Shown: in pieces, positions 16,289 to 40,645 of the stretch
How the letters are laid out: each line of letters opens with the position of its first letter
Position numbering within the stretch: position 1 is the stretch's first letter
Assembly: GCA_030649025.1 (NCBI GenBank)
Contig: JAUSGO010000029.1
Coordinates: 1 to 41,709, forward strand
Direction of reading: 5' to 3'
From: a bacterium
GTDB taxonomy: Bacteria; Patescibacteriota; Minisyncoccia; JAUYLV01
DNA length: 41,709 nucleotides
The notes under the pieces: generated by a model
Told to the model about the DNA's origin: nothing
The model's input: the letters and a program-made list of their open reading frames with translations, nothing else
Databases searched by the model: none
Position numbers and translations under genes: made by a program

Positions 16289-16405
16289 CAAAACTCCACG
16301 CTGACCTGAGCCTTGCGGCTCCATACCCTTTCGGGCATGACCTCTCATCGAAGTTGGCCAAACGTGGAGTTTGGTATCGATGAGAGGATTCTTTGTGCCA
16401 TGCCC
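16289..16405 (-). promoter_or_regulatory. Structured 5' leader RNA with pseudoknot and alternative pairing
   Basis: Read on the minus strand, 16387-16377 (CCTCTCATCGA) pairs with 16351-16341 over 11 bp. This stem is capped by CCAAAC/GTTTGG, whose loop TCCAC is complementary to GTGGA further down; extended, 10 bp of 16372-16363 pair with 16300-16291. GGGCATG (16405-16399) can pair with CATGCCC (16339-16333), which can instead fold with GGGTATG (16328-16322) over a GAAA tetraloop. A further hairpin GAGCC-GCAA-GGCTC lies at 16321-16308. Both tetraloops are of GNRA form only on this strand. The element ends 37 nt before the ATG of the DUF4352-like gene. I do not recognise a named riboswitch. Confidence 0.6.
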
Positions 16406-16641
16406 TCCGGTTTCCCGATGGGTTTAGGCAATTAAGTTGTTAAGGATATTGTAGCACAGAAACGGCCTTCTCTCATCCCTTAGCTCGCTTTTTGAAATCC
16501 GCGAAGCGAGTTGGGGATAACTCTCCGGCGGATTCTTCTGGAGTTTTATAGAGTCGCATAGACTTTTTTCTCAAAAGTGTTTTTGTTGTGCGATTTTCTA
16601 AAAAACCAGTCCGGACGCTTGTTGAGGCCGCGCAACACCCG

Positions 16642-38036: not shown

Positions 38037-38206
38037 GGGGGCGAAAAGCAAATGTCTTTGCTTTTCGCGGGGTGGAATACAGAAGTCTTTTATTCCACGG
38101 GCAAGTACGATGTTTCTGAAAAATGAGGACTTGCCTAGGAGGCTTCAATGTTTTTAATCGTATAAAAGCCGCCCAGGACTACAGGTTCGAATCCTGTACC
38201 GCCCAC
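38037..38206 (+). ncRNA. Three hairpins followed by a tRNA-like 3' end with CCA
   Basis: The 3' end has a perfect T-arm ACAGG-TTCGAAT-CCTGT and ACCGCCC-ACCA, but the matching 5' acceptor half GGGCGGT is missing. Before it lie hairpins GCGAAAAGCAAA/TTTGCTTTTCGC (12 bp), GTGGAATA/TATTCCAC (8 bp) and GGCAAGT/ACTTGCC (7 bp). The piece begins right after tRNA-Val with CACATTGCAG, a copy of that tRNA's anticodon-arm 3' side. Too short for a standard tmRNA. Ends at the terminator 38221-38246. Confidence 0.5.
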
Positions 38207-38220
38207 CAGAAACCGAAATA

Positions 38221-38812: not shown

Positions 38813-38910
38813 ATGACTAATTTAGTCATGATTAAAACTTAGTTTTTACAGGAAGAGACCTGAGAGGCCCAAGAGGCTCCTCTTCCTATTTTCCGGTAAA
38901 TCCGTATACT
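38813..38910 (+). promoter_or_regulatory. Two hairpins and a promoter upstream of the tRNA-Thr array
   Basis: A palindrome around 38813-38833 (CATGACTA/TAGTCATG) follows the CYTH gene. GGAAGAG...CTCTTCC forms a second hairpin ending about 38887. TATACT (38905-38910) with a weak -35 TTCCTA (38883-38888) would start transcription about 38917, just ahead of the first array unit. Confidence 0.45.
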
Positions 38911-38924
38911 GTATGAGGTAATGT

Positions 38925-39262
38925 ATGCCGTTGTAGTCTAGGCCTTTTCCGCCTTTCTATCGGAAATTGAAAAGGCCGTAATCCCGGCGTACTCACCGGG
39001 GCCTAGCTGATTCAGCTGAGCATGCATTAAAAAATTACATGCCGTTGTAGTCCAGGTTTTCTCCTCTTGTATACCAGATTTGGAGAAAACCGTGATCCCG
39101 AGCGTAGCGAGGGCCTCAGCGAAAGCTGAGCCTCCAAAATCAATATGCCGTTGTAGCAAGGCGCCGCTCGCTGTGTTCTATCAACTTAGTAACGGCGCCG
39201 AAGTGCCGCGTACTCGCGGCCTCAGCGAAAGCTGAGCCTCCAAAATCAATATGCCGTTGTAG
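38925..39262 (+). repeat. Tandem array of structured units that begin with the tRNA-Thr 5' end
   Basis: ATGCCGTTGTAG occurs at 38925, 39039, 39145, 39251 and 39428 (spacings 114, 106, 106, 177). The first three copies each carry three hairpins. Units 2 and 3 share a 46-bp identical tail-plus-head (39112-39157 and 39218-39263) including CTCAGC-GAAA-GCTGAG, while their 61-nt inner parts (39051-39111 and 39157-39217) are unrelated in sequence yet the same length and fold alike. Unit 1 has the same three-stem plan. Copies 4 and 5 run on into the tRNA-Thr 5' half. Confidence 0.8.
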
Positions 39263-39288
39263 CTCAGCTGGTAGAGCAACTCCATGGT
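39253..39288 (+). pseudogene. Orphan tRNA-Thr 5' half (copy 4 of the array)
   Basis: These 36 bases are identical to the 5' exon of the complete tRNA-Thr gene (39430-39465), acceptor strand to anticodon GGT. Instead of a 3' half comes about 135 nt with small hairpins (GATAAT/ATTATC; TGGA/TCCA; ATTTTC/GAAAAT) and then copy 5. No group I core was found in this piece. Confidence 0.7.
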
Positions 39289-39429
39289 AATGGCTCGGTG
39301 ACGTGAGAATGGATAATTACCTTTTAGTCATTATCTTTCCTCATTTACAGCACCGCTCTAAAACTGGAGATGACCTTCCAAATGGGTTAGAATAGCGAGT
39401 GGAAAAGAGATTTTCAAAATTGAAAATAT

Positions 39430-39710
39430 GCCGTTGTAGCTCAGCTGGTAGAGCAACTCCATGGTGAGACATTTTGTCTTCTTGCCCATCAGATCGGAAA
39501 CTTTCTGATGAATCCCGAATTACGGTTAAAGACCCACGCCGGGTTCAGACCGTGGCGTTTAAGAACGCCCGAACGACTGACAAGGGAGGCTTCTTCTCCG
39601 AAAGGAGAATGCTTAAGATACAGTCTAATCTCCTCGTATAGGGCAATATAGAGGTTAAGGAGGAGTGTGAATGAAGGAGTAGGTCGTCGGTTCAATTCCG
39701 ACCAACGGCT
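39430..39710 (+). tRNA. tRNA-Thr (anticodon GGT) interrupted by an intron after the anticodon
   Basis: 5' exon 39430-39465: acceptor GCCGTTG, D-arm GCTC-AGCTGGTA-GAGC, anticodon stem ACTCC, loop start ATGGT. 3' exon 39674-39710: AA, stem GGAGT, variable AGGTC, T-arm GTCGG-TTCAATT-CCGAC, acceptor CAACGGC, discriminator T. The joined loop is ATGGTAA. No CCA is encoded. The intron lies between positions 36 and 37. Confidence 0.8.
39466..39673 (+). other. Group I-like intron in tRNA-Thr
   Basis: 208 nt, ending in G. The 5' exon ends in U, as group I splicing needs. P7 is GACTG (39575-39579) with CAGTC (39621-39625), in the typical context ACAGTCTAA. Between them P8 is TTCTCC-GAAA-GGAGAA with a GNRA loop. 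P1 can form from ATGG with CCAT near 39485. No homing endonuclease is encoded. Confidence 0.6.
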
Positions 39711-39719
39711 CAAAGAAAA

Positions 39720-39750
39720 GATACTGCAGCAGTTTTGTTGCAGTATTTTT
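39720..39750 (+). terminator. Terminator of the tRNA-Thr transcript
   Basis: ATACTGCA and TGCAGTAT pair over 8 bp, then TTTTTT. It ends directly at the ATG of the tyrosine recombinase. Confidence 0.8.
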
Positions 39751-39751
39751 T

Positions 39752-40645
39752 ATGGAGATTAAGTTCCTCGTTAATCGCTTCTGCGACTATGCGACACATT
39801 TTCGCGGTAACTCACCGGCGACGATCAAGCGATACCATTTCGTGGCCAACACGTTCATAAAGATGATGGGCGTGGAGGAAATAGAGCAAGTGAACAAAGA
39901 CAACATCCGGGAGTTCTTCTTTAGGGGTAGGACAGAGCGCAATTGGAAGAGTAGCACCTTTATCAGCTGTCATAACACCCTTAAAGTATTCTTCGAGTGG
40001 TGCATTAAAGAAGGAAGAATGCGCGGACCCAACCCTACCGACGATACAGAACAACCAAAGTTAGAAAGGCGGTTACCATTGAAGCTGTCAAAACAAGACT
40101 CCATGCGATTGCTAGAGGTAGTCTACAACTATCCGCATGTATCCAAATTCACGCGCTATCGCAACCAGGCGATATTCGCGACATACATATTTGCCGGTCT
40201 ACGCAAAAAGGAACTCTTGAAATTGACCTACACAGATGTAGATCTTGAAAACATGTCTATATTTGTCCGCCAGGGTAAGGGAGCCAAGGACCGGGTAGTT
40301 CCCATCTGTACGCGGCTTGCCGACATACTGCTACAGTACCTAGTAGAGCGGAAACGCCTACGCAAGACTTGTCCGGAGTTCTTTACCTCATTAACCTTCA
40401 ATAGCGGATTTACGGACCATGGCTTAAAGCATCTGGTGGAGCAGACGCGAAAGATTTCCAAGATAGATTTTGGCATCCATAAACTTCGCCATACCTTTGC
40501 CACGCTCATGCTGGAAGGTGGTTGTGACATTTATAGTCTGTCCAAGATGATGGGGCATTCGGATATAAAAACGACCACCATTTACCTGGCAGCTAACATT
40601 GAGCATCTAAGGGGGCAGATAACGAAGCATCCGCTGAATAGCTGA
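39752..40645 (+). CDS. Tyrosine recombinase (XerC/D-like)
   Basis: 297 residues. N-terminal SAM-like DNA-binding domain (1-100), then the catalytic domain with Arg151 (AGLRKKELL), a Lys in the QGKGAKDRVVP hairpin, HKLRH (His243, Arg246), GHS (His269) and nucleophile Tyr278 (TTTIYLA). All six catalytic positions are present and length is normal. Could be the resident Xer protein or an integrase; its place right after tRNA-Thr, a common integration target, and beside an array of tRNA-derived repeats favours an integrase-type role. The start is flush with the terminator, with no Shine-Dalgarno, so expression may rely on readthrough or leaderless transcription. Confidence 0.85.
   Translation: MEIKFLVNRFCDYATHFRGNSPATIKRYHFVANTFIKMMGVEEIEQVNKDNIREFFFRGRTERNWKSSTFISCHNTLKVFFEWCIKEGRMRGPNPTDDTEQPKLERRLPLKLSKQDSMRLLEVVYNYPHVSKFTRYRNQAIFATYIFAGLRKKELLKLTYTDVDLENMSIFVRQGKGAKDRVVPICTRLADILLQYLVERKRLRKTCPEFFTSLTFNSGFTDHGLKHLVEQTRKISKIDFGIHKLRHTFATLMLEGGCDIYSLSKMMGHSDIKTTTIYLAANIEHLRGQITKHPLNS

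Follow-up and report, generated by a model that had tools for sequence, protein, structure and literature searches.

The repeat array at positions 38917-39750 of the window (the whole stretch of DNA analysed, 41,709 nucleotides in length) is probably the remains, in several layers, of a tRNA-Thr(GGT) gene that has served as a landing site for mobile DNA. We read the locus as a graveyard of tRNA-Thr(GGT) copies, not as an integron. Two families of double-hairpin elements enter into this argument: family C, which occupies the array itself, and family B, a mobile palindrome present or absent at orthologous sites of two genomes.

A preliminary description of this DNA had reported five copies of a repeat, identical 46-bp blocks around two units with unlike inner parts that keep the same stems, an intron-bearing tRNA-Thr and a tyrosine recombinase, all of which are reproduced here. 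Exact copies of ATGCCGTTGTAG occur five times in the whole 41,709-base window, beginning at 38925, 39039, 39145, 39251 and 39428, and define units 1 to 5. The features of the array and its right flank are as follows.

38927-38936, + strand: unit 1 tRNA-Thr(GGT) 5' fragment, nt 1-10, identical to nt 1-10 of unit 5
38941-39000, + strand: unit 1 family C double-hairpin element (match to model R2 at 38941-38987, E 2.7e-5, model seed; second hairpin folds)
39041-39050, + strand: unit 2 tRNA-Thr 5' fragment, nt 1-10, from the sequence
39055-39113, + strand: unit 2 family C element (R2 match 39055-39101, E 8.8e-7, model seed)
39112-39157, + strand: 46-bp block, copy one (copy two at 39218-39263)
39115-39130: CTCAGC (tRNA nt 11-16) with GAAA hairpin, after the unit 2 C element
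39147-39156, + strand: unit 3 tRNA-Thr 5' fragment, nt 1-10, from the sequence
39157-39220, + strand: unit 3 family C element (R2 match 39160-39209, E 1.4e-7, model seed)
39221-39236: CTCAGC-GAAA-GCTGAG, after the unit 3 C element
39253-39290, + strand: unit 4 tRNA-Thr nt 1-38, attL-like, its last nucleotide being the end of the anticodon loop ATGGTAA (39284-39290)
39430-39465, + strand: unit 5 tRNA-Thr(GGT) exon 1, nt 1-36 (ARAGORN, introns allowed)
39466-39673, + strand: unit 5 anticodon-loop intron, 208 nt, group I-like, without an ORF (U before, G at end; P7/P8-like fold)
39674-39711, + strand: unit 5 tRNA-Thr exon 2 (ARAGORN, introns allowed)
39752-40645, + strand: XerC/XerD-like tyrosine recombinase, intact ORF of 297 aa (PF00589, 6.5e-26)

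In units 1-3 the leader and tRNA nt 1-10, where the tRNA match ends, are followed by a hairpin element; after the element, units 2 and 3 continue with CTCAGC and its GAAA hairpin into the next leader. Unit 4 matches the tRNA as far as nt 38, and a 41-nt tRNA 5' block is identical at 39248-39288 and 39425-39465. Over 62 nt, unit 1 resembles unit 2 at 73% identity. The cores of units 2 and 3 are 30% identical in an ungapped comparison and have a common predicted fold, a stem and a second hairpin. The region 38900-39750 holds no convincing ORF-bearing cassettes, and the units match no known RNA family in Rfam.

A genome-wide search with a covariance model of the cores (R2), as the preliminary description had proposed, retrieved 12 family C copies from the genome that carries the window (hereafter the home genome), six being the seeds of the model and the remaining six found by it. 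Three are units 1-3; the other nine lie on other contigs, some without a tRNA nearby. Their stems are 94.8% paired, against 57.6% after shuffling, which indicates covariation, and most copies, that of unit 3 among them, start with CAA. The suggestion that small structured elements were inserted repeatedly at a tRNA-derived site is borne out. Slippage could instead have duplicated the leader and tRNA 5' end in tandem, fast divergence or a strain-mixed assembly accounting for the unlike cores; the identical 46-bp blocks are what such duplication would leave, and the assembly is fragmented, with an estimated contamination of 3%. We consider this quite unlikely, since each core can be recognised as belonging to a dispersed family, and the unit 3 element has an 81% DNA match on another contig (C28:31329-31397), at a site without a tRNA. 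Independent insertions alone do not, for their part, fully account for equal 46-bp flanks around the unlike cores of units 2 and 3.

Family B is a unit of about 68 bp with two hairpins, the commonest of the hairpins that flank tRNA genes. Its layout is GG, a 12-bp palindrome, GGGCRACT..TGTTTC..AAAATG..AGTYGCCC and AGGA, the first hairpin (12 bp) being variable and the second carrying the TGTTTC loop. A profile search with a model built from seven copies (R1) gave 45 matches in the home genome and 34 in its relative G001, the sole same-family genome compared (from another genus, with one genome per species). Outside these two, one marginal match was found among 53 same-class genomes (G047, 32 bits), and a pattern scan of 84,980 genomes returned G001 and scattered single matches, mostly weak or absent by the model, the best at 25 bits. 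Neither the B pattern nor a tRNA-Thr 5' half was found in IMG/VR, and family B is absent from Rfam.

The 79 B copies of the two genomes carry 57 different 11-nt arms, and 56 copies are perfectly paired. Over the 75 distinct copies, pairing stands at 96.2% versus 72.4% in shuffled comparisons, double changes at 330 versus 93 expected by shuffling, and the covariation score at 0.63 versus 0.19. Stems may vary yet stay paired because template switching copies the palindromes anew, or alternatively because structure is selected. Template switching at replication can create and mend hairpins (PMC8794818), and it would account for wholly different arms with perfect pairing; the small number of G-U pairs in B stems was dropped as proof of it, as such pairs are similarly scarce here in tRNA acceptor stems (2.5%).

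B elements also nest in one another, in three cases and at the same point each time. One case lies in the window:

38041-38068, + strand: first hairpin of an outer B copy, downstream of tRNA-Val, from the sequence
38072-38140, + strand: B nested in the outer B, directly after the first hairpin and GGG (R1, 75.1 bits, E 1.8e-13)
38141-38178, + strand: rest of the outer B, ending CCCAGGA, B-like
38179-38208, + strand: tRNA 3' end, from variable loop to CCA, left by a broken gene other than the adjoining tRNA-Val, from the sequence

On contigs C9, C70, C74, C84 and C10 of G001, CGTC-REP-like hairpins (GTCATTCCCGCG..GGGAATCC) enclose B copies, and the two possibly spread jointly as composites. Insertion of B into hairpin loops as a general rule was considered and set aside: flank complementarity was enriched, 11% versus 3% (stems of at least 6 bp), but part of the excess comes from repeated REP-like sites.

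Mobility of family B is seen in protein genes. An ABC-transporter ATPase of the home genome contains a B copy in frame, amounting to 22 extra residues that are exactly missing from the G001 orthologue; conversely, G001 bears an in-frame B within a SpoU methylase that is absent from all four orthologues checked, including that of the home genome. The coding inserts are in frame and without stops, and one copy lies antisense within its coding frame. This empty-site comparison concerns family B; family C is known from dispersed copies in the home genome.

These insertions bear on the proposal, raised in the preliminary description, that the units are structured RNAs of the tRNA leader. The shared fold held up, whereas the leader role did not, given the coding-gene and antisense insertions. 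More broadly, functional structured RNAs, such as tRNA-leader regulators, might have spread through the genome and been retained for their fold, as the very strong covariation, the conserved loop motifs and an orientation shared with the tRNAs would suggest; but elements inserted in frame in coding sequence (once antisense), nested in one another, confined to two genomes and missing from Rfam make this account unlikely.

The landing-site interpretation draws further on the association of B with tRNA genes. Of the 45 copies in the home genome, 22 are no more than 300 nt from a tRNA, a zone comprising 2.4% of the genome (P about 4e-24), and 21 of these 22 are on the tRNA strand; the corresponding figures in G001 are eight of 34, with all eight on the same strand. 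Among all the tRNAs inspected, many are flanked by their own fragments with hairpins between. B interrupts tRNA sequences after G18G19 of the D-loop, after nt 10 (Leu, Ser), and also within variable arms and the anticodon loop, its left neighbour being GG almost always, and its removal in silico from the flanks restores tRNA-Gly(CCC), tRNA-Asn and tRNA-Leu. Broken copies mostly adjoin or surround an intact one. For 13-15 intact tRNAs of the home genome, the downstream fragment is the 3' end of that same tRNA, and in these cases no tRNA 3' ends were seen upstream of intact tRNAs; two rows of the table of such cases come from other genomes. tRNA-Asn was not found in the home assembly, though the genome is rated complete, and a match on C5 was rejected as chance.

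Several other observations were made at tRNA sites. At three tRNA 3' ends (L063, L051/L134 and L132) B starts with GCAC, so that its first bases are those of the tRNA's end, and the opposite arm is altered to match. Both genomes carry B at the same position of a tRNA-Thr relic, CAACGACATGG / CAAGGAG (L156, G001 C33:1-120; L076, C7:2090-2200), with first hairpins that are wholly unlike and each perfectly paired. A further tRNA-linked repeat of 145-175 bp, family A (L008, L028, L016, L024 and L035, on C12, C16, C34, C18 and C2), repeats the tRNA's last 17-18 nt, from T-loop C56, after a terminator and hairpin core, and at tRNA-Ile and tRNA-Met it forms two tandem copies.

tRNA-Ala shows a nested arrangement: in both genomes a B-like element situated in the D-loop of one tRNA-Ala holds, within its second hairpin, another, intact tRNA-Ala gene (L148, G001 C10:42250-42600; L012, C17). 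Nesting on C17 has two layers: the outermost copy has no anticodon loop and the second is complete but for its insert. Compared by eye, the hairpins of the two genomes differ by paired changes; a nested arrangement of tRNA-Ser (C24) is less clear. We offer tentatively, as a rather doubtful extension, that this may be a self-compensating element, a double hairpin whose second hairpin carries a complete tRNA gene in its apical loop; the element would enter the D-loop of the same tRNA after G19, destroying one gene and delivering another and so generating nested tRNA genes. In a parallel way, the anticodon-loop intron would make the replacement tRNA-Thr immune to its own integrase. That B and C are instead tiny RNA introns, and that splicing renders tRNAs with several inserts functional, would agree with the tRNAs restored by deletion of B in silico and with the second tRNA-Ala of C17; such splicing is extremely unlikely in view of stop-free coding inserts in frame, an outermost tRNA-Ala without an anticodon loop, and intact copies adjoining the broken ones.

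At the right end of the array, ARAGORN with default settings misses unit 5 and, with introns allowed, reports a tRNA-Thr(GGT) whose 208-nt intron lies at position 37, between anticodon-loop positions 36 and 37. It is the sole complete Thr(GGT) gene found in the home genome (1.23 Mb, 40 contigs), and its transcript should therefore be spliced. The intron is likely of group I, to judge by its U/G splice borders and P7/P8-like predicted core, but its scores against Rfam Intron_gpI (10.8-14.6 bits) fall far under the cut-off of 50. Unit 4 has an apparent counterpart on another contig, C7, which opens with an integrase fragment 39% identical to the window recombinase over 84 residues (too little for the same gene, a possibility we rejected), followed by two ORFs and then, from C7:2029 onward, a tRNA-Thr 3' half starting ATGGTAA. 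On visual inspection the two ORFs suggest a trypsin-type protease and an HNH protein; neither has an NCBIfam match. The end of unit 4 and the start of the C7 half are one and the same 7-nt anticodon loop, and joined they make a perfect tRNA-Thr(GGT); to judge from these sequences, they may be attL and attR of one island whose contigs, C29 and C7, are unjoined in the assembly. Elsewhere in the window, a structured RNA of the LOOT family (RF03000) occupies 16308-16430 on the minus strand (73.4 bits).

The recombinase beside unit 5 is probably the integrase of an ordinary tRNA-Thr island. It scores below the equivalog cut-offs of XerA/C/D models, and IMG/VR yielded one distant integrase (26% identity). 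The home genome has only three tyrosine recombinases, no Y1/REP-type (HUH) transposase (PF01797), and no mobilising enzyme that we could find for the elements. The array had been likened to a miniature integron, in which this recombinase would swap the inner parts as ORF-less cassettes, with tRNA 5' ends serving as att-like sites; its position next to the array, the identical borders around different cores and weak scores to integron-integrase models are in keeping with that idea. Those scores are, however, far under cut-off (97.9 bits against 265 for TIGR02249, 66 against 435 for NF011946), the XerA/integron model NF040815 gives 172.9 bits against 220, there are neither ORFs nor an attC array with cassettes, nine of the 12 cores are dispersed on other contigs, and B, which also lies in frame in protein genes, fills G001 (34 copies), where no close relative of the recombinase was found. 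An integron is accordingly very unlikely, and the recombinase does not look like the mobiliser of B, a role we rejected; it could conceivably mobilise C.

Under the landing-site interpretation, successive insertions would have broken old tRNA-Thr copies, with C elements cutting units 1-3 between nt 10 and 11, and cells would have survived as long as an intact copy remained. The island's tyrosine recombinase may then have crossed over within the 7-nt anticodon loop, the island bringing unit 5 as a replacement tRNA, whose intron, splitting the 7-nt core, would block re-integration and be spliced from the RNA. If this is right, the locus keeps a legible record of how gene-less mobile DNA of about 70 bp invaded essential tRNA genes, and several questions become testable: how palindromes without an enzyme move, whether hairpin loops are chosen, how stems change yet pair, and whether tRNA introns shield tRNA genes from integrases, a protection so far argued for archaea (PMC4390854).

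By analogy, family B behaves like Rickettsia palindromic elements (RPEs), to which the palindromic elements of Wolbachia are analogous. Shared features are dispersed palindromic copies (79 B in two genomes, 96% paired) and in-frame residence in conserved protein genes, here the ABC ATPase and SpoU methylase, with absence from orthologues. RPEs are small palindromic repeats found in frame in genes likely to encode functional proteins, and for the CGTC-tagged REP type, which includes them, a dedicated transposase is not known (PMC3733652). B and C differ in their two adjacent hairpins, their strong preference for tRNA loops and ends and their lineage, and the likeness drawn here is one of features. 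REP elements, of the GTAG RAYT-linked and CGTC types, are likewise dispersed palindromes, and several G001 copies of B lie inside REP-like hairpins; B, by contrast, is longer, has no GTAG or CGTC tag and occurs in a genome with no RAYT/Y1 transposase. The single and double hairpin-forming elements of mitochondria resemble B and C in form and apparent mobility, with no enzyme known, and in sponge mitochondria their stems are conserved and their loops vary (PMC2800124), whereas here the stems vary by compensatory change, the loop is conserved, and the elements are bacterial and tRNA-targeted. Finally, tRNA-targeted islands and the disrupted tRNA genes of archaea, where, according to one proposal, integration disperses pieces of tRNAs and disruption shields the genes (PMC4390854), appear to share with this locus attL/attR-like fragments, an integrase beside a restored tRNA and an anticodon-loop intron; the present case differs in being bacterial, in its group I-like intron, and in fragments that have been cut further by palindromic elements.
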